DNA from: Fibrobacter sp. UWR3
GTDB lineage: Bacteria; Fibrobacterota; Fibrobacteria; Fibrobacterales; Fibrobacteraceae
Length of the DNA stretch: 64,000 nucleotides
Direction of reading: 5' to 3'
Assembly: GCF_900143055.1 (NCBI RefSeq)
Contig: NZ_FRCW01000001.1
Coordinates: forward strand, 372,001 to 436,000
The stretch's first letter is position 1. The number at the start of each line of letters is the position of its first letter. The notes beneath the pieces were generated by a model. The model had not been told where the DNA came from, searched no databases, and was given only the letters and a program-made list of their open reading frames with translations. The translations under genes and the position numbers were made by a program. Of this stretch, positions 2,790 to 16,746 are shown one piece after another.

Positions 2790-3893
2790 ATGGATATTGG
2801 TGCACTTCATTTTCAGAATCCCGAAGCCTTCTGGCTGCTCGTTTTTGTTCCTGTACTTATAGCCCTGTACGTGTATCGCCAGCGCAAACGTAAGAGAACC
2901 ATCAAGTTTCCTGCCCTTTCCATAGCGAAGCGGGCTGTTCCGAGCCGTCGTGTGCGTCTGCGCCACATTGTGCCCGCGTTGCGCCTTGCGGCCCTCTGCT
3001 GCTTCGTGGTGGCGCTTGCCCGCCCGCAGAATGCGATGGAAGTGGAATACACAAATACAGATGGTGTGGATATCATGCTCGCACTCGACGTTTCGGGTTC
3101 CATGGGCACGCTCGACATGCTGACCCGCGCGGAGCAGGCGAAGCTCGGAGTGATGAACGCCGAACGCATCCTCAATTCCGGTGAATACTGGAAATATAGC
3201 CGTATGGGTTACGCGCAGGGGGTGATTGCGGACTTTATCCAGAAGCGCCACAGCGACCGTATTGGGCTTTCTGCCTTCGGTAGCCGTGCCGTGACGCAGT
3301 GCCCGCTTACGCTCGATTACGGGAGCCTGCTCGAGATATTGAAGGCAACGGACGAGCTTGCGAAGGATTCCATTATCGCGGGTCGCACGGCGATTGGCGA
3401 TGGCCTGATGAACGCGCTTGCACGCCTGCAGAAGTCCGAGGCAAAATCGAAGGTGGTGGTGCTCCTGACTGACGGGCGCGACAATGCGAGCGTGATTTCG
3501 CCGGTCCGTGCCGCGGATGTGGCGCAGTCGCTGGGCGTGAAGGTCTATACCGTGGGCGTAGGCAAGAGGAGGGGCAAGATTCTCGCCTTCCAGCAGAACC
3601 CTTGGACGGGCGAAATCTCGTGGGGCGAACGCGACATCACTCCCGAAGAGGAGGTTGACGAATCTACCCTCAAGGAAGTCGCCGCAAAGACGGGAGGCAA
3701 GTTCTACCGCGCCGAGAACAAGGAACAGCTCGAGGAAATCTACTCGGAAATTGACCAGCTCGAGAAGACCGAAATCGAGACGGTCGCCTACGCGCGGTAT
3801 GCCGAGAAGTTCTACCCGTGGCTCCTGGCGGGAGCCTTCCTGATTCTGCTGGAGCTGCTGCTCGCGAATACGCGCTTCGTGCGCATTCCGTAA
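2790..3893 (+). CDS. batA: BatA-type VWA-domain membrane protein
   Basis: A 367-residue inner-membrane protein with an N-terminal helix (about 12-27), a second helix (about 60-80, ending VALARPQNA), a VWA domain carrying the MIDAS motif D100-V-S-G-S, and a C-terminal helix (about 340-360). This order is typical of BatA from aerotolerance (Bat) operons, proteins thought to work with a MoxR AAA ATPase in envelope complex assembly or stress tolerance. ATG 2790 has GGAG six bases upstream; an in-frame TTG at 2778 would overlap that site. A batB-type gene lies 1.3 kb downstream but is separated by an opposite-strand gene. No MoxR or BatD is in the window. BatA versus BatB naming is by motif resemblance. 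Confidence 0.8.
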   Translation: MDIGALHFQNPEAFWLLVFVPVLIALYVYRQRKRKRTIKFPALSIAKRAVPSRRVRLRHIVPALRLAALCCFVVALARPQNAMEVEYTNTDGVDIMLALDVSGSMGTLDMLTRAEQAKLGVMNAERILNSGEYWKYSRMGYAQGVIADFIQKRHSDRIGLSAFGSRAVTQCPLTLDYGSLLEILKATDELAKDSIIAGRTAIGDGLMNALARLQKSEAKSKVVVLLTDGRDNASVISPVRAADVAQSLGVKVYTVGVGKRRGKILAFQQNPWTGEISWGERDITPEEEVDESTLKEVAAKTGGKFYRAENKEQLEEIYSEIDQLEKTEIETVAYARYAEKFYPWLLAGAFLILLELLLANTRFVRIP

Positions 3894-5009
3894 TTATAGC
3901 GGTGTCGCGGGCTTGATGCAGTTGCTTTCGGCTTTCTCGAGGAACGTGTCTATTGTGCGAGTCTCGGACGTGCCGTATTCTGACCAGTGTATGCTGAACG
4001 TGATGGGCCACGGACCCTGCAGGAGTTCCGTACTCGATGCGCTTGCTGCAATCAGCTTGTTTGCAAATGCCTCGATTTCTGCGAAGTCGCTGCATTCGGT
4101 AACAATCGCGAAGGTCGCCTTGCCGTAGCGGGCGATAAACGTGCCGCGCTGGACGCTCTGCTCGCGCAGGAATGTCGCAAGTTTCTGGAGGGCGACCACG
4201 CAGGCCTTTTTGCCGTGCTTCTTTTTCCTTGCCTTGAAATTGTCTATCTCTATCTTGAGAAGGAATAGCCTCTTGGCCGGGTCCTGGCTCTGCGTGATGG
4301 ATTCCAGGTACGACGACAGCTTGTTCGTGTTGTTGAGCCTTGTTGTTAGGTCTACGGTAATATGCTGTCGGGTGCGGTACATGTGGATAAACAGGGTAAC
4401 GAGGACGAATACTGTCGAGGTTATGGGGAGCTCGTAGAATTTCGCCTGCAGGATCAGGGTGAGTAGCGGGATGAGCATGACGATTGCGATTATGTAGAAA
4501 CACCGCCTATGGAGCTTGTTGGTGCATTTGCTTGCCTTTTTTAGGCAGAGTCCGGATGCCGCTGCAATGTAGAGGATGGAAAGCATGTTCAGCAAGGCCC
4601 ATAGGTAGGGATTCATGTCGGTTGGTCCATCCGTCAGGTGCATCAGCGCGTCGACGAGGGCGATTGCGCTGACGATGACGCTCGGGCCTATGATGGGGAT
4701 GAGCCACTTGCGCAACGTGTAGGTATTTGCCGATGTCGAGTAGAAAACGGAAAGGAACCAGCAGCAGCCCATGCAGATACAGGCGATGATCTTGAAACTA
4801 TTGATAAGCCTGATAATGGGAATGTTTGATTCGGGAACGAGTAGCCCGAGCGAGTTCATCACGCTGAATAGGATGGATGTTTCTACAAGGCACTGGAATG
4901 CGCGTGCCGATTTCTCCAGGACAGCACGTTCCCTGTTGCCGTACCATATCATCAGGTACACGATAACGCTGATAATGTCGATTTCGATTCTAAAAGCGTC
5001 TATTCCCAT
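3894..5009 (-). CDS. Membrane protein with degenerate GGDEF-like domain
   Basis: A 371-residue protein. Residues about 10-215 contain roughly seven hydrophobic helices, like 7TM sensor modules. Residues about 225-365 follow the GGDEF fold pattern (DLTTRLNN near the start, then FLLKIEIDNFK), but the catalytic loop reads ARYGKATFAIV in place of RYGGDEF. The active-site Gly-Gly-Asp-Glu is therefore gone and diguanylate cyclase activity is unlikely. It could act as a receptor or scaffold, but no function is assigned. ATG 5009 is preferred; GTG 5015 is also possible and neither has a clear ribosome-binding site. The stop codon directly abuts the convergent batA-like stop (3891-3893). Confidence 0.65.
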   Translation of the reverse strand: MGIDAFRIEIDIISVIVYLMIWYGNRERAVLEKSARAFQCLVETSILFSVMNSLGLLVPESNIPIIRLINSFKIIACICMGCCWFLSVFYSTSANTYTLRKWLIPIIGPSVIVSAIALVDALMHLTDGPTDMNPYLWALLNMLSILYIAAASGLCLKKASKCTNKLHRRCFYIIAIVMLIPLLTLILQAKFYELPITSTVFVLVTLFIHMYRTRQHITVDLTTRLNNTNKLSSYLESITQSQDPAKRLFLLKIEIDNFKARKKKHGKKACVVALQKLATFLREQSVQRGTFIARYGKATFAIVTECSDFAEIEAFANKLIAASASSTELLQGPWPITFSIHWSEYGTSETRTIDTFLEKAESNCIKPATPL

Positions 5010-11277: not shown

Positions 11278-13099
11278 TACCGGCACGGAGAAGTCTTTCG
11301 GGACAAGGCCTGCACGTCAGGTCCTTGTGGGTATTCCCGCATCTCCCGGCCTCGTCATGGGCCGTGCGTTCCAGGTGGCGAGCCGCGAGATTACCGTCGT
11401 CGAGGAGGACATTCCCGAGTCGCGCGTGCAGGCGGAAGAACAGTTGTTCCGCAGGGCGGTGACCCGCACCTCCAAGGAAATTTCGCAGATCAAGGAAATT
11501 TCCGAGACGCGCACGGGCGTGCACGATAGCCTCATATTCTCGACGCACCTGATGATATTGCAGGACCCGGGCCTCATGAACGGTGTCCTGAAGATGATTC
11601 GCGAAGGCCACAAAAATGCCCGCTGGGCGGTGCACGTGGTGCTCGGGGACTACATCGACAAGTTCGAGAAAATCGATTCGCCCGCGATGCGCGACAAGGC
11701 GGCCGACCTGCGCGACCTGTACAACAGGCTCATGTCGACGATGGACGAGGCCGAACCGGCCTTGGAGGAAGTGTCTGGCGAGGACGGCGCGGTGATTGTC
11801 GCGCACGAGATTCTGCCGAGCTTCCTGATGGCGCTCAAGCCGGGCCAGGCCCGCGCGCTTTTGATGGATACCGGTGGCCGTACGAGCCACGTGGCGATTC
11901 TTGCGCGCTCCCTGCAGATACCGGCTGTGTCGGGCCTGCGCAACGTTGTCACGGCGGTGAAGCCCGACGACACGATTATCGTGGACGGCTCGGGCGGCCT
12001 TGTCATCGTAAACCCGAACGAGGACGACATCCGCAGGTTCCGTGAACGTGTGGAGGTGTTCGAACGCCAGCGCAGGGAACTGTTTACCATGCGCAGGCTT
12101 GAGCCGATGACCCGCGATGGCAAGTACATTACTTTACATGCAAACATAGAACTGCCTACCGAGGCGGAGAAGGTGATGGATTACGGCGCGACGGGCGTCG
12201 GGCTATACCGTTCCGAGTTCCTGTTCTTGCAGTACAGCGCCCCGACCGAGGAAGAACAGACCGAAGCTTACAGGCAGATTCTCGACACGATGGCTCCTTG
12301 CCCGGTGACCATCCGTACGCTCGACGCGGGTGGCGATAAACTAGTCTCGGGCATTACTGCGACCAACGAGGCGAACCCCTTCATGGGCTGGCGCTCCATC
12401 CGCGTGTGCCTCGACCGCGAGGATATTTTCTGCACGCAGCTGAAGGCGCTCCTCAAGGCGAATACCAAGGGTAACTTGCGCATATTGCTCCCGATGATTT
12501 CGGGACTCGAGGAACTGCGCCGTGCGAAGGCGTGCATCCGCCGCTGTTCCGAGGAACTGGAGGCGGAAGGAATCAAGTGCGCTACGGTGAAGGTGGGCAT
12601 CATGATTGAAGTGCCTGCCGCGGTGGTACTTGTAGACCTGCTGGCGAAGGAGGCCGACTTTTTCAGCATCGGTACAAACGACCTTATCCAGTTTACGCTC
12701 GCCGTGGACCGCACGAACGAACTCATTACCGACATGTTCCAGCCGCACCACCCCGCGGTGCTGAACATGATTTACCATACGGTGAATGCTGCCCACAGGG
12801 AAGGCATCCCGGTTGCGGTCTGCGGAGAAATGGGCTCCGACCCGATGAGCGTCCTGTTGCTCGTGGGGCTTGGAGTCGATGAACTTTCCATGACGCCCTG
12901 GAGCGTGATGGCGACAAAGAAGATTATACGCTCGATAAACTTCGAGGATGTCCGCGAGAGTGCGCTTGCCGTGCTGCAGATGGACGACACGAACAGCGTG
13001 AACGGCTACATGTACAGGAAGTACGCGCAGACCATTACCGACCTCGGGATATCGAGCTTTATTGGCCAAGTTGGAAACGAGGTGCATGGTGATACTTAG
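11249..13099 (+). CDS. ptsI: PTS Enzyme I (phosphoenolpyruvate-protein phosphotransferase)
   Basis: A 616-residue enzyme that takes phosphate from PEP and passes it to HPr His15. The phosphohistidine domain shows GGRTSHVAILARS with active His214. The PEP-binding barrel contains DGSGG (about 248-252), GLYRSEFLF and VCGEMGSDP with active Cys525. The N-terminal extension before ASPGLVMGRAF is about 30 residues longer than in typical Enzyme I, so a start downstream of ATG 11249 is possible. The overlap with ptsH and with the next gene (start 13086) indicates a compact operon. Confidence 0.93.
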   Translation: MTISTKNPADTGTEKSFGTRPARQVLVGIPASPGLVMGRAFQVASREITVVEEDIPESRVQAEEQLFRRAVTRTSKEISQIKEISETRTGVHDSLIFSTHLMILQDPGLMNGVLKMIREGHKNARWAVHVVLGDYIDKFEKIDSPAMRDKAADLRDLYNRLMSTMDEAEPALEEVSGEDGAVIVAHEILPSFLMALKPGQARALLMDTGGRTSHVAILARSLQIPAVSGLRNVVTAVKPDDTIIVDGSGGLVIVNPNEDDIRRFRERVEVFERQRRELFTMRRLEPMTRDGKYITLHANIELPTEAEKVMDYGATGVGLYRSEFLFLQYSAPTEEEQTEAYRQILDTMAPCPVTIRTLDAGGDKLVSGITATNEANPFMGWRSIRVCLDREDIFCTQLKALLKANTKGNLRILLPMISGLEELRRAKACIRRCSEELEAEGIKCATVKVGIMIEVPAAVVLVDLLAKEADFFSIGTNDLIQFTLAVDRTNELITDMFQPHHPAVLNMIYHTVNAAHREGIPVAVCGEMGSDPMSVLLLVGLGVDELSMTPWSVMATKKIIRSINFEDVRESALAVLQMDDTNSVNGYMYRKYAQTITDLGISSFIGQVGNEVHGDT

Positions 13100-15437
13100 T
13101 GGTTCGGTGTTCTTTCGCCGGTTCTTTCCTGTTCTATTGCTGATTGTCGCGTGCGAAGCTTCGGGTGAAAAAGGCGACGGCAAGGCGGACAGCGCGAATG
13201 TGGGCGAAGCCGCCGCAGCCGAGAACGATATCCCGCTGGACCCGTATGCCGCACTCGAGCAGATTCCTTCGGACGATTTCCATAACCGCGTAATCCGTGC
13301 CGACCGCGCGAAGCGTAGCATGGAAGATACTTCGCTTGCCCGCAATGTGCGCGACTATGCCCGCGCCGCGTATTATTACTACACCGAAAAGTGGGATAGC
13401 GCGTACACGACCTACGATTCCCTGAGGGGGCGCGACCCGAAACTGGAAGCGGAAGTAGTCTTGCGCATGGCAAAGGCGAAATCCCGGCAGGGCGATTTTG
13501 CTGGGATGCGTGCCGCCCTGAACCTGGGGGCGAAACTCTCGAAGAACGAGTCTTTCGCGCGCACGGCGGCAAGGCTCCGCGTGGAGGCGGCGCTTGCCGA
13601 CTCGACGCTTTCGGAAAAAATGCAGGCGGATTCCCTGAAGGCTTTCCTCGAGAAGTTCCCGAAGGGCGACGATGCCGCCGCCCTCAAGTACCGCTACGCG
13701 TCTTACCTGGAACAGGACAAGCAGGAAAAGCAGGCGAAGCGCTACTACATGCAACTGCTCGCGACATCGACCCCGTACAGGGATTCCGCATTTGCGGCAA
13801 TCAGGCGGCTCCGCAAGGTGCAGGCCTTCCCGGAATCGCTCGCAGAGAAGGTGGCATACGCGAAGATGGCCTGCGCAAAGGAAGAAGCGGGGGCATGCCT
13901 CGGGCTTCTCGATTCCATACGGATTCTTGATGAGGGCTTGGTGGCGGAACACCCGGAATCGGCGGTGGCGCCGTCCGAAGATTCGCTGCAACAGAAACTT
14001 TTCAGGAGCACGCTCGACCTGAACACGCGCATTGTGCTGTGGAGCAAGCGCGGCGAGGCGCTCAAGGCGGTGGGCCGCAGTGACGAGGCGATTGCGCAGT
14101 ACAAGTTCCTGGTGGATTCCGTGGAGGCTCGCCCCGTGTGGATCCAGGCGGCGCTCCGCCTTCTCAGGAGTTTTGCCCCAAAGAACACGAAGGAAATCCG
14201 CAGGCTCGATTCCATGCTGCAGAGCGCTAACAAGTACAGCAAGGAAAATGCGAACAGCCTGTGGGTGAAGGGATTCGAGTACGAGCAGAAAGAGAACTAC
14301 GACAGCGCTGTGGTGACCTTCGAGAAACTTGCCGACAGGCGGTTCGGGAACAACCAGAAACGCCAGTGGGCAAAGTTCCGCATCGGGTTCATCTACTTCA
14401 AGCAGGAACGTTTTGCCGATGCCGAGAAGGCGTTTATCGATGCCGCGAAGGAACCATTCCTGTGGAGCGGTAGCGGGGCGAGGTACTTCCTTGCCGAATC
14501 GTACATGAAGCAGAACAAGGATTCCCTTGCGCGTGAGGCTTTCCTCGACTGCATCCGCGATTTCCCGCTGGGTTACTACGCGCACCGTAGCCGCATGAAA
14601 CTTGTGGAATACGAACTGCTCGAAAAGTTCGAGGTGCCGTACGCACGCGGCGTGCCTATGACTCCCGAGGCGACGCTTGCCTGGGTGAAGAACCTGCAGA
14701 AGGGAGCGAAGGACCCGACCTACACTCCGGAACGCTACAACCGCATCAAGACGCTGTTCCAGTACGGGTTTAGCGACGAGGCCTTTGCCCTGTATGACGA
14801 GGCCCGCAGGAAGAATGCGAAGAGGCTCGACTTCCTGTACGAATATGGCAAGCTGTTCTACGACATGGGGGAGGTTGCCGCGGGTTACAGGCTCGCGCGC
14901 CAGTTCCAGGCGAATATCGACCGTCGCGTGCTTGCCGACGCCCCGATAGAAGTACTGCATTATCTGTTCCCGCTGCCCTACAAGGACCAGGTGAAGTTCC
15001 ATTCCGGAACGCGCATAGACCCGTTTTTCGTTTATAGCGTGATGCGCCAGGAATCCATATTCGACTACCAGATTACATCGCCTGCGGGCGCGTGCGGGCT
15101 GTTGCAGATTATGCCCGCGACGGGCAAGATGCTCGCGAAGCAGGAATACATGGATTCCTTCGACCCGTCGCAGTTGTATAACCCGTACATGAACATCCGC
15201 CTCGGCATCCGTTACCTCGTGGACTTGAAGGCTCAGTACAAGGATGACTACATGTACGTGCTCGGGAACTACAATGCGGGCCCGAAGCCCACGAAACGCT
15301 GGCAGGCTGCCGGGGAAGGCAAGAACTGGGACATCCGCGCCGAGGAAATCAGCTATTGGGAAACCCGCGACTACGTGAAACGCGTGATGGGCAACTACTG
15401 GATTTATCAGGAAATCTATGATAGTTCAGATTTTTGA
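13086..15437 (+). CDS. Lytic murein transglycosylase lipoprotein (Slt70-like)
   Basis: A 783-residue outer-membrane-type lipoprotein; lipobox LIVAC puts the lipidated Cys at about residue 19. Residues about 70-620 are a long chain of alpha-helical TPR/SLT-superhelix-like repeats. The C-terminal SLT domain (about 640-775) has VMRQESIFD with catalytic Glu656, GACGLLQIMPATG and YNAGP, the classic motifs of enzymes that cleave peptidoglycan MurNAc-GlcNAc bonds to 1,6-anhydro products. ATG 13086 lies inside the ptsI 3' end, with GAGG at 13079-13082. An open frame reaches back to 13062 but adds a non-signal N-terminus. Confidence 0.9.
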   Translation: MVILSGSVFFRRFFPVLLLIVACEASGEKGDGKADSANVGEAAAAENDIPLDPYAALEQIPSDDFHNRVIRADRAKRSMEDTSLARNVRDYARAAYYYYTEKWDSAYTTYDSLRGRDPKLEAEVVLRMAKAKSRQGDFAGMRAALNLGAKLSKNESFARTAARLRVEAALADSTLSEKMQADSLKAFLEKFPKGDDAAALKYRYASYLEQDKQEKQAKRYYMQLLATSTPYRDSAFAAIRRLRKVQAFPESLAEKVAYAKMACAKEEAGACLGLLDSIRILDEGLVAEHPESAVAPSEDSLQQKLFRSTLDLNTRIVLWSKRGEALKAVGRSDEAIAQYKFLVDSVEARPVWIQAALRLLRSFAPKNTKEIRRLDSMLQSANKYSKENANSLWVKGFEYEQKENYDSAVVTFEKLADRRFGNNQKRQWAKFRIGFIYFKQERFADAEKAFIDAAKEPFLWSGSGARYFLAESYMKQNKDSLAREAFLDCIRDFPLGYYAHRSRMKLVEYELLEKFEVPYARGVPMTPEATLAWVKNLQKGAKDPTYTPERYNRIKTLFQYGFSDEAFALYDEARRKNAKRLDFLYEYGKLFYDMGEVAAGYRLARQFQANIDRRVLADAPIEVLHYLFPLPYKDQVKFHSGTRIDPFFVYSVMRQESIFDYQITSPAGACGLLQIMPATGKMLAKQEYMDSFDPSQLYNPYMNIRLGIRYLVDLKAQYKDDYMYVLGNYNAGPKPTKRWQAAGEGKNWDIRAEEISYWETRDYVKRVMGNYWIYQEIYDSSDF

Positions 15438-15454
15438 ATTATGAATTAGGAATT
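15436..15454. repeat. Left inverted repeat of the four-helix-bundle element
   Basis: The 11 bases AATTAGGAATT (15444-15454) are the exact reverse complement of the AATTCCTAATT unit repeated downstream at 15856-15887. They begin immediately after the stop codon of the transglycosylase gene (15435-15437). Confidence 0.75.
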
Positions 15455-15459
15455 GGATA

Positions 15460-15864
15460 ATGGGGCTTGAAACGGCTTTAAAGAACACGGAAAAGAACAT
15501 TTTGCAAGAAAAATGTATGGATTTTTCTGTGAAAATAGTGAATTTGTATCAATCGCTTTGCAGCGATAGACATGAGTTTGTTATGTCAAAACAAATGCTT
15601 AAATGTGGCACTAGTATAGGTGCAAATGTACGAGAAGCGAAAAGAGCTCAGTCAAAACCTGATTTTTTATCAAAACTATCAATTGCATTAAAAGAAGCTG
15701 ATGAAACACAGTATTGGCTTGAATTGATGAGTAAAACAGGATATATAAACGAAAATGATTTTAAGGGTTTGTTTTCAGATAGTGAGGAACTTGTAAAAAT
15801 TTTAGTTTCTATTACAAAAACTATAAAATCACAGATTAAAACATCTAGAAATTCAAATTCCTAA
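15460..15864 (+). CDS. Four-helix-bundle protein (S23/bAvd-like)
   Basis: A 134-residue, almost entirely helical basic protein. The motif CGTSIGANVREAKRAQS (about 49-65) followed by FLSKLSIALKEADETQYWLELM (about 69-90) is the signature of the four-helix-bundle family related to proteins encoded in 23S rRNA intervening sequences and to the Avd accessory protein of diversity-generating retroelements. No reverse transcriptase or variable repeat is nearby. Base composition is far more AT-rich than the genes on either side, and AATTCCT-type inverted repeats frame the gene; its last codons and stop lie inside the downstream repeat. There is no obvious ribosome-binding site at ATG 15460. The family call is firm, the function unknown. 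Confidence 0.8.
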   Translation: MGLETALKNTEKNILQEKCMDFSVKIVNLYQSLCSDRHEFVMSKQMLKCGTSIGANVREAKRAQSKPDFLSKLSIALKEADETQYWLELMSKTGYINENDFKGLFSDSEELVKILVSITKTIKSQIKTSRNSNS

Positions 15865-15887
15865 TTCCTAATTCCTAATTCCTAATT
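15856..15887. repeat. AATTCCT heptamer array, right inverted repeat
   Basis: Four perfect tandem copies of AATTCCT (15856-15883) followed by AATT. The stop codon of the four-helix-bundle gene lies in the first junction (TAA at 15862-15864). The array pairs with AATTAGGAATT upstream of the gene, so an RNA covering the element could close into a stem. Confidence 0.85.
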
Positions 15888-15891
15888 AACT

Positions 15892-16746
15892 ATGCTCTTC
15901 CTGTTGCTCACAATTACTCCGGCATTCCTGTTCGCCTGCGGAAACATCCTCGAGAAGTCGGGCGTGTCTACGGTCGGCAAGCGCACCGGCGGAACGTCGC
16001 GCCCCTGGGAGTTTTTCAAGGGAGTCGTTACGAACAAGTTCTGGTGGCTGGGCATCTGCTGTTCGGGCCTTGCGACTCTCGGGTACTACATCGCGATGGC
16101 CCGCTACGACCTCTCGCAGGTGCAGCCGATGATGGTCTTAAATCCGGTCCTTACGGCGCTCATGGGCTTTTGCATATTGAAGGAAGCGCTCACGAAGCGC
16201 ATAGTGGTCGCCATCTGCTTTGTGGTGGCGGGCCTCCTGTATTCGGTCGAAAGTCTGGGAGAATCGACCGCCGTGCAGAATATCGGGATGCTCTGGGCCT
16301 ATGCGGGCGGCCTGTGCGCGGTGACACTCTTTGCTCACTTGTTTGTAAAGGACCGCGAGATGGTGGATTCGTTCATCATGGGCGTGGGCTTCGGGCTCTC
16401 TGCGGCATTCTACAAGAGCCTCGCGATGGACTTCGACCTTGACCATATCGAGATTTCCTCGGTAGCGAGCCTGTTGCTCGATTTCCGCACGCTGGGTTAC
16501 ATCGCGACATACGGCATAGCGTTCCTCTATTCGCAGATTTCCTTTTCGCGCGGTCGTGCGCTGTTCATTGTCCCGTTCAGTGCTGCCGTGGGGGCTGCCG
16601 TCCCTACGCTTGCGGGTGCCCTGGTGTTTTCCGAGGCCTTCCCCGTCGGGAAGATTGTCTCGGTGTCGCTCGTGCTTACCGGTGCCGCCCTCTTCGTGGT
16701 CCGTAGGCCCCGTCGCAAGTCCGGTCAATCTTCTGCCAATCCGTAA
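15892..16746 (+). CDS. DMT/EamA-superfamily membrane transporter
   Basis: A 284-residue protein with about ten predicted membrane helices in two similar halves, ending in a basic tail (RRPRRKSGQ), as in drug/metabolite transporters. The first half contains YYIAMARYDLSQVQPM followed by NPVLTALMGFCILKE, a pattern typical of EamA domains in which a conserved Pro/Glu pair ends the fourth helix. Substrate is not predictable; members export amino acids, sugars or drugs. ATG 15892 begins just after the heptamer array, so the inserted element separates this gene from the upstream operon. Confidence 0.8.
   Translation: MLFLLLTITPAFLFACGNILEKSGVSTVGKRTGGTSRPWEFFKGVVTNKFWWLGICCSGLATLGYYIAMARYDLSQVQPMMVLNPVLTALMGFCILKEALTKRIVVAICFVVAGLLYSVESLGESTAVQNIGMLWAYAGGLCAVTLFAHLFVKDREMVDSFIMGVGFGLSAAFYKSLAMDFDLDHIEISSVASLLLDFRTLGYIATYGIAFLYSQISFSRGRALFIVPFSAAVGAAVPTLAGALVFSEAFPVGKIVSVSLVLTGAALFVVRRPRRKSGQSSANP

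Follow-up and report, generated by a model that had tools for sequence, protein, structure and literature searches.

A gene for an intervening-sequence protein between inverted heptamer arrays in Fibrobacter is very probably a small mobile element outside ribosomal RNA genes

The 64,000-nt stretch of Fibrobacter sp. UWR3 DNA analyzed here (the window; contig NZ_FRCW01000001.1, positions 372,001 to 436,000, with window positions used throughout) carries a short gene for an intervening-sequence protein (IVP) enclosed by two inverted arrays of 7-bp repeats, all features described at this locus being on the + strand. The IVP gene (15460-15864, 134 aa) lies between a gene encoding a lytic transglycosylase with an SLT domain (PF01464) and TPR repeats (13062-15437) and one for an EamA-like transporter (PF00892; 15892-16746). 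Its G+C fraction of 0.309 is the lowest among the 50 non-overlapping open reading frames (ORFs) of the window, the next being 0.404, as against 0.58 and 0.59 in the two neighbors; a first-pass annotation of this DNA had rightly singled it out as an AT-rich gene between GC-rich ones. Judging by comparison with empty sites in relatives, the whole element would span 15423-15888 (~466 bp). It encodes neither a transposase nor a reverse transcriptase. An Rfam search of 15000-16400 returned no match, that is, no known RNA family at the locus, and a PADLOC search for defense systems gave none either.

The left (5') arm (15423-15457) consists of about five degenerate G-rich heptamers, in order AGTTCAG ATTTTTG AATTATG AATTAGG AATTGGA, and includes AATTAGGAATT, read directly at 15444-15454. 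The right (3') arm (15853-15888) is made of C-rich heptamers (CCTAATT); direct reading revealed four perfect AATTCCT copies plus AATT at 15856-15887, and the IVP stop codon (15862-15864) lies inside this array, both as first described. The earlier description of an 11-base inverted repeat starting at 15436 was correct as to the inversion, but the repeats are actually tandem heptamer arrays on both sides that pair over 36 nt with 78% complementarity (15422-15457 with 15853-15888), and the left one begins near 15423. With up to one mismatch allowed, AATTCCTAATT occurs six times in the window versus 1.06 expected, always at the IVP locus, a count that none of 100 shuffles reached; a tandem-period scan at the same threshold detected no period-7 array in the window besides the two arms. 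The closing stem is also present in the predicted single-strand fold of the element (z = -4.1). On the right, 3 bp separate the end of the arm from the next start codon. On the left, the arm does touch the previous stop, as had been noted, but it also supplies that stop: it encodes the C-terminal residues and stop of the SLT gene (SSDF*), where relatives with an empty site read DGI*/DGL*. Both neighbors are intact, in line with the claim that neither had been damaged, except that the end of the upstream protein changes from DGI/DGL to DSSDF. The AGGA of the left arm could act as the ribosome-binding site of the IVP gene.

We know of no role assigned to the S23/IVP family, for which structures have been available since 2006-2007. 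The window protein scored 98.5 bits against PF05635 (cut-off 33.8) and 109.2 bits against TIGR02436 (cut-off 24), and on these profile matches it is a 23S rRNA intervening-sequence protein (IVP/S23). Its AlphaFold2 model (predicted local distance difference test score, 90), a predicted four-helix bundle, retrieved the solved S23-family protein 2rld (E 7e-9) and Xcc0516 (2gsc, E 4e-4) in a structure search. The model also matched, by fold, Avd, the accessory protein of diversity-generating retroelements (DGRs) (4dwl_D; template modeling score 0.71/0.87, root-mean-square deviation 1.8), at an identity of 17-18%, as well as chains of DGR ribonucleoproteins (entries 8ube and 8ub7), which upholds the kinship with rRNA intervening-sequence proteins and Avd initially proposed for this four-helix bundle. 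Avd belongs to a reverse transcriptase/template-repeat cassette, whereas the immediate neighbors of the window IVP, to which this check was confined, are SLT and EamA genes and not a reverse transcriptase. The IVP has a predicted isoelectric point of 8.7 and is under purifying selection, with dN/dS of ~0.12 for the window type among close relatives and 0.07 in Mesorhizobium. Xcc0516 is reported as a homopentamer in work cited in PMC4990558.

The SLT-EamA gene pair is conserved in the genus, with the EamA gene present in 76 of 80 genomes, and 39 junctions between the two genes could be resolved. Twenty-five are empty, consisting of a stop codon, about 3 bp and a start codon, and in the closest cases their flanks are 90-94% identical to those of occupied genomes; the gene is therefore far from being carried by all relatives at this place. 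Nine junctions hold a full element (G000, G055, G006, G049, G062, G075, G061, G040, and G054). Of the remaining five, G069 has an element with an internal deletion, G038 and G041 have solo arrays, and G063 and G023 have short footprints. Four more full copies occupy the same site outside the 39 junctions (G002, G039, G064, and G070). The G069 element (L235, G069:C25:53521-54721) measures 207 bp and has kept its arms but lost most of the gene. Three element types were found at the site: the window type and two others whose IVPs are ~25% identical to that of the window and whose heptamers are GTTACTA and CTTAGAA. In two genomes, remnants of AATTCGG-like repeats lie ahead of the newer element, which is of the CTTAGAA type in G075 and of the GTTACTA type in G062. 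The SLT-EamA junction is a hot spot.

A second site, in Mesorhizobium, yielded a comparable picture: among 30 genomes, 12 carry an IVP element, 1 a solo hairpin (AGTAGTG), and 1 a truncated copy, while 16 are empty. The arms here are made of AGGCAGT copies, 2-11 on the left and 3-15 on the right, and the element reads as adjoining the stop codon of a putative acyl-CoA dehydrogenase gene. Patchy occupancy could also stem from a single old insertion per site, followed by loss in most lineages and by turnover of gene and arms through recombination rather than by repeated insertion, which would account for the footprints and deleted forms at the SLT-EamA site (G063, G023, and G069) and for the older heptamers left beside newer elements. 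We nonetheless deem this course of events unlikely, since most empty sites are tidy even when their flanks are 90-94% identical to occupied ones, IVP types of ~25% identity require at the very least repeated replacement, and the Mesorhizobium site behaves likewise.

Heptamer arms proved to be the rule around IVP genes. The genome to which the window belongs has three of them, each between inverted 7-bp arrays with a heptamer of its own, that is, AATTCCT (window), a TTCACAC-like unit (contig 3) and TAGTCAN (contig 8); copies elsewhere mostly carry heptamers other than AATTCCT, the one for which a genome search had initially been suggested. Inverted period-7 arms likewise flank IVP genes across the genus, elsewhere in the phylum (other families and classes), in many phyla and on cyanobacterial plasmids, and almost all sampled IVP genes sit between such arrays, so that the repeats are not missing around other family members. 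In a cross-phyla set of 76 IVP loci chosen by protein similarity alone, 43% of the left flanks and 47% of the right ones had at least 17/21 matches at lag 7; the outer flanks gave 0-3%, and all remaining lags apart from 14, the harmonic of 7, gave 0-4%. Comparison of each left arm with its own reverse-complemented right arm gave a median score of 18.8 in these loci, which fell to 8.0 when arms of different loci were paired or the direct orientation was used. In 51 of 67 loci, the left and right heptamers differ by no more than 1 mismatch (5% if permuted). The arms are also polar, with G exceeding C in 53 5' arms (the opposite in 1) and C exceeding G in 52 3' arms (the reverse in 6). The 79 distinct heptamers share an A-G-T-K-R-K-K tendency (4.34 bits, against a null maximum of 3.78). 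Relatedness fails to explain this architecture because 80 loci form as many as 64 clusters by their DNA flanks.

These data leave virtually no room for an ordinary resident AT-rich gene next to an incidental terminator-like repeat: the right array could conceivably form part of a terminator, but the empty sites in most relatives, the period-7 arms in unrelated phyla and the matching of the two arms led us to reject it. The idea that the arms are the invariant terminal repeat of an insertion sequence was discarded too, given that the heptamer changes from element to element. A related proposal, in which an ordinary transposase (IS200/IS605- or RAYT-like) moves in trans an element akin to a miniature inverted-repeat transposable element (MITE) with the IVP as cargo, fits the short length, the inverted arms and the deleted and solo forms, and many gene-less copies are likewise a trait of MITEs and of repetitive extragenic palindromes with their tyrosine transposases (REP/RAYT). 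Unlike these, however, IVP elements have neither a fixed terminal sequence nor a transposase; their tandem-heptamer arms can be wholly different from one element to the next, yet keep the same period, polarity and complementarity, which differs from fixed-terminus recognition by a transposase, and comparison of junctions by eye showed no clear target duplication. We regard transposition in trans as very unlikely. All-frame stop-codon blocks were considered as a function of the heptamers as well, but the excess of stops was modest (left arms, 42 of 60 versus 53% in shuffled sequences; right arms, 27 of 68 versus 26%) and was not used. Scanning of 800 kb for paired arms around other cargo returned five pairs under strict criteria and nothing systematic.

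The heptamer follows the gene. It is shared in 59% of the IVP pairs that are at least 75% identical and reside at unrelated sites (n=17), as compared with 1.5-4% of pairs between 15 and 60% identity, which indicates that gene and arms travel together. Where the neighbors are co-directional, the element lies in sense in 61 of 64 cases and in antisense in 3. Insertion sites include groES/groEL, cas1/cas2, nuoC/nuoD and pyrH/frr, pyrH being identified by its position and by an amino acid kinase domain. The two cas1/cas2 elements, L157 (tested with Pfam) and L195 (assigned by sequence likeness), come from metagenome-assembled genomes labeled Nitrospirae and Planctomycetota and have similar flanks. 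IVP elements with a TGTGAA heptamer (L034 at about 3700-4200, and L050-L053) interrupt other genes, whose sequence motifs resemble those of Rpn/PD-(D/E)XK transposase-like nucleases. A phage vehicle was rejected, as the Mesorhizobium-type IVP had no match in phage records, its matches being found only in cyanobacterial and other plasmids.

The same arrangement occurs within ribosomal RNA. Locus L321 is a spirochaete 23S rRNA gene, recognized by conserved 23S motifs, with an IVP-pseudogene insert bounded by GACAGAT/GACTGAT-type heptamers and, before this insert, a gene-less heptamer stem (features on the reverse strand at about 525-655 and 1320-1870); from neighboring motifs, we place insert and stem tentatively at helices 45 and 25. 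This suggests that rRNA intervening sequences (IVSs) without an ORF are solo forms of the heptamer-bounded IVP element. In the Coxiella IVS, three tandem GACAGAT heptamers, varying in number by strain, precede the S23p start, the terminal stem measures 28 bp, RNase III cleavage was mapped to the first repeat, and the S23p ORF was described as decaying (Warrier et al. 2016; PMC4990558). That article was the only one bringing together heptameric repeats and the IVS protein in a literature search whose scope excluded most subscription journals and preprints. The window element resembles the rRNA IVSs of Coxiella and Leptospira in its IVP-family ORF, in its size (about 430-500 bp in the group), in its complementary termini with a closing stem, and in its sporadic presence among relatives with empty sites. 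It differs from them in that it lies between the protein genes SLT and EamA instead of inside an rRNA gene, and in that purifying selection acts on its IVP, in contrast to the Coxiella ORF described as decaying. Excision of the RNA by RNase III was shown for the Coxiella IVS. Taken with the empty relatives, the arms around other IVP genes, the IVP-bearing 23S insert, and the Coxiella IVS (PMC4990558) bear out the IVS-like element of the first-pass annotation. It is highly probable, in our view, that the window carries a small mobile element of IVS-like type that lies outside rRNA and consists of an IVP gene set in inverted polar heptamer arrays. On the best reading of these data, rRNA IVSs are a special case of such an element.

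Cyanobacterial short tandemly repeated repetitive (STRR) sequences are a further instance of bacterial heptamer arrays. TAACTGA arrays were described in Beggiatoaceae, cyanobacteria and Bacteroidetes, with horizontal transfer suspected although "no mechanism is evident" (MacGregor 2015; PMC4679880). The main text of that article contains no occurrence of S23, four-helix or intervening sequence, so the link to IVP is absent from it. TAACTGA reversed (AGTTATC) fits the A-G-T-K-R-K-K motif, a resemblance only. TAACTGA and STRR arrays share with the window arms the tandem 7-bp units, a mostly intergenic location, frequent abutment on start codons and a distribution of horizontal appearance; they were described as direct repeats, whereas the window arms are inverted.

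In the history that we favor for the window, the element would have entered between the stop codon of the SLT gene and the start codon of the EamA gene, giving the upstream gene a new stop codon. The IVP, pentameric in a solved relative and related in fold to the DGR Avd, would recognize the heptamer arms as nucleic acid, as heptamer tracking, polarity, fold and selection lead us to infer, and the transcript would either retain the stem or be cleaved there. Insertions are presumably tolerated because they are located between reading frames or in loops of rRNA helices, and gene-less heptamer hairpins may represent solo or deleted derivatives of full elements. Extending this tentatively beyond the locus, it is possible, though we stop short of calling it probable, that heptamer-bounded IVP genes constitute one unrecognized class of mobile elements that includes the classical rRNA IVSs, is the source of TAACTGA, STRR and other heptamer repeats, encodes as its sole protein a heptamer-matched, nucleic-acid-recognizing Avd-fold pentamer, and spreads in a way for which transposases and reverse transcriptases offer no precedent.

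Several observations weigh against the mobile-element explanation that we favor for the locus. By eye, occupied and empty junctions at the SLT-EamA and Mesorhizobium sites disclosed no clear target duplication, the nearest pairs being up to ~94-96% identical, so that of the two features to be looked for in orthologous sites only the empty ones were found. The strict arm threshold was missed by 31 of the 76 loci, though many of these show heptamers by eye. Gene-less (solo) arrays outnumber IVP copies, and heptamer arrays amount to 27 per 400 kb in genomes with a detected IVP versus 16 where none was detected; with densities of a similar order in IVP-negative genomes, no resident IVP is needed, and a strict dependence of solo arrays on one is unsupported, which speaks against a simple model with the IVP as sole driver. 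An excess of cognate solo arrays where an IVP resides is suggestive only: its p value in IVP-bearing Fibrobacter (0.0003) carries no phylogenetic correction, and that in Mesorhizobium rises from a raw 1e-4 to 0.10 after a fixed deduction for each element's own arrays. Finally, arm mismatches of G.U type are not in excess over A.C (55 versus 73; p=0.13), a wobble-pair test without any sign of RNA-level selection on arm pairing; complementarity may therefore be kept by copying at the DNA level and not by selection on the RNA.

The abundance of solo arrays, also in IVP-negative genomes, the stacking of different heptamers at one site (AATTCGG before CTTAGAA in G075 and before GTTACTA in G062) and the silent wobble test would all suit hairpins that spread by themselves, with slippage, copying of the hairpin or array recombination among the host processes that could drive this, and with the IVP as a passenger or specialized guest. 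We consider this doubtful, yet a contender: almost all sampled IVP genes lie inside arms and are under strong purifying selection, the arm heptamer follows the IVP lineage across unrelated sites, which a passive passenger would not predict, and the deleted IVP element in G069 is what a derivation of solos from full elements would predict.

An S23/IVP gene, until now known mainly from parasitic rRNA inserts, is thus found between inverted heptamer runs in many phyla, which joins three loose ends, namely S23/IVP function, the origin and mobility of rRNA IVSs, and the unexplained bacterial heptamer repeats. The latter now have a concrete candidate protein, along with sites, empty in some relatives and occupied in others, that can serve as models. 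For annotation, a warning follows, in that arms make false C-terminal tails and alter the final residues encoded by upstream genes. In L036-L039, L057 and L060, the IVP frame continues into the right arm and so acquires a tail encoded by the repeats, e.g., SELRIPN; such tails in database proteins may be element arms. One array of ~20 C-rich heptamers (CCAATGA/CCAATAA; L267 18246-18387, G000:C1:268245-268386) has no matching G-rich arm nearby. A gene-less AATTCGG hairpin (L030 3018-3125, G000:C6) resides within an ORF of 1354 aa and leaves its frame intact, hence arms can turn into coding sequence.
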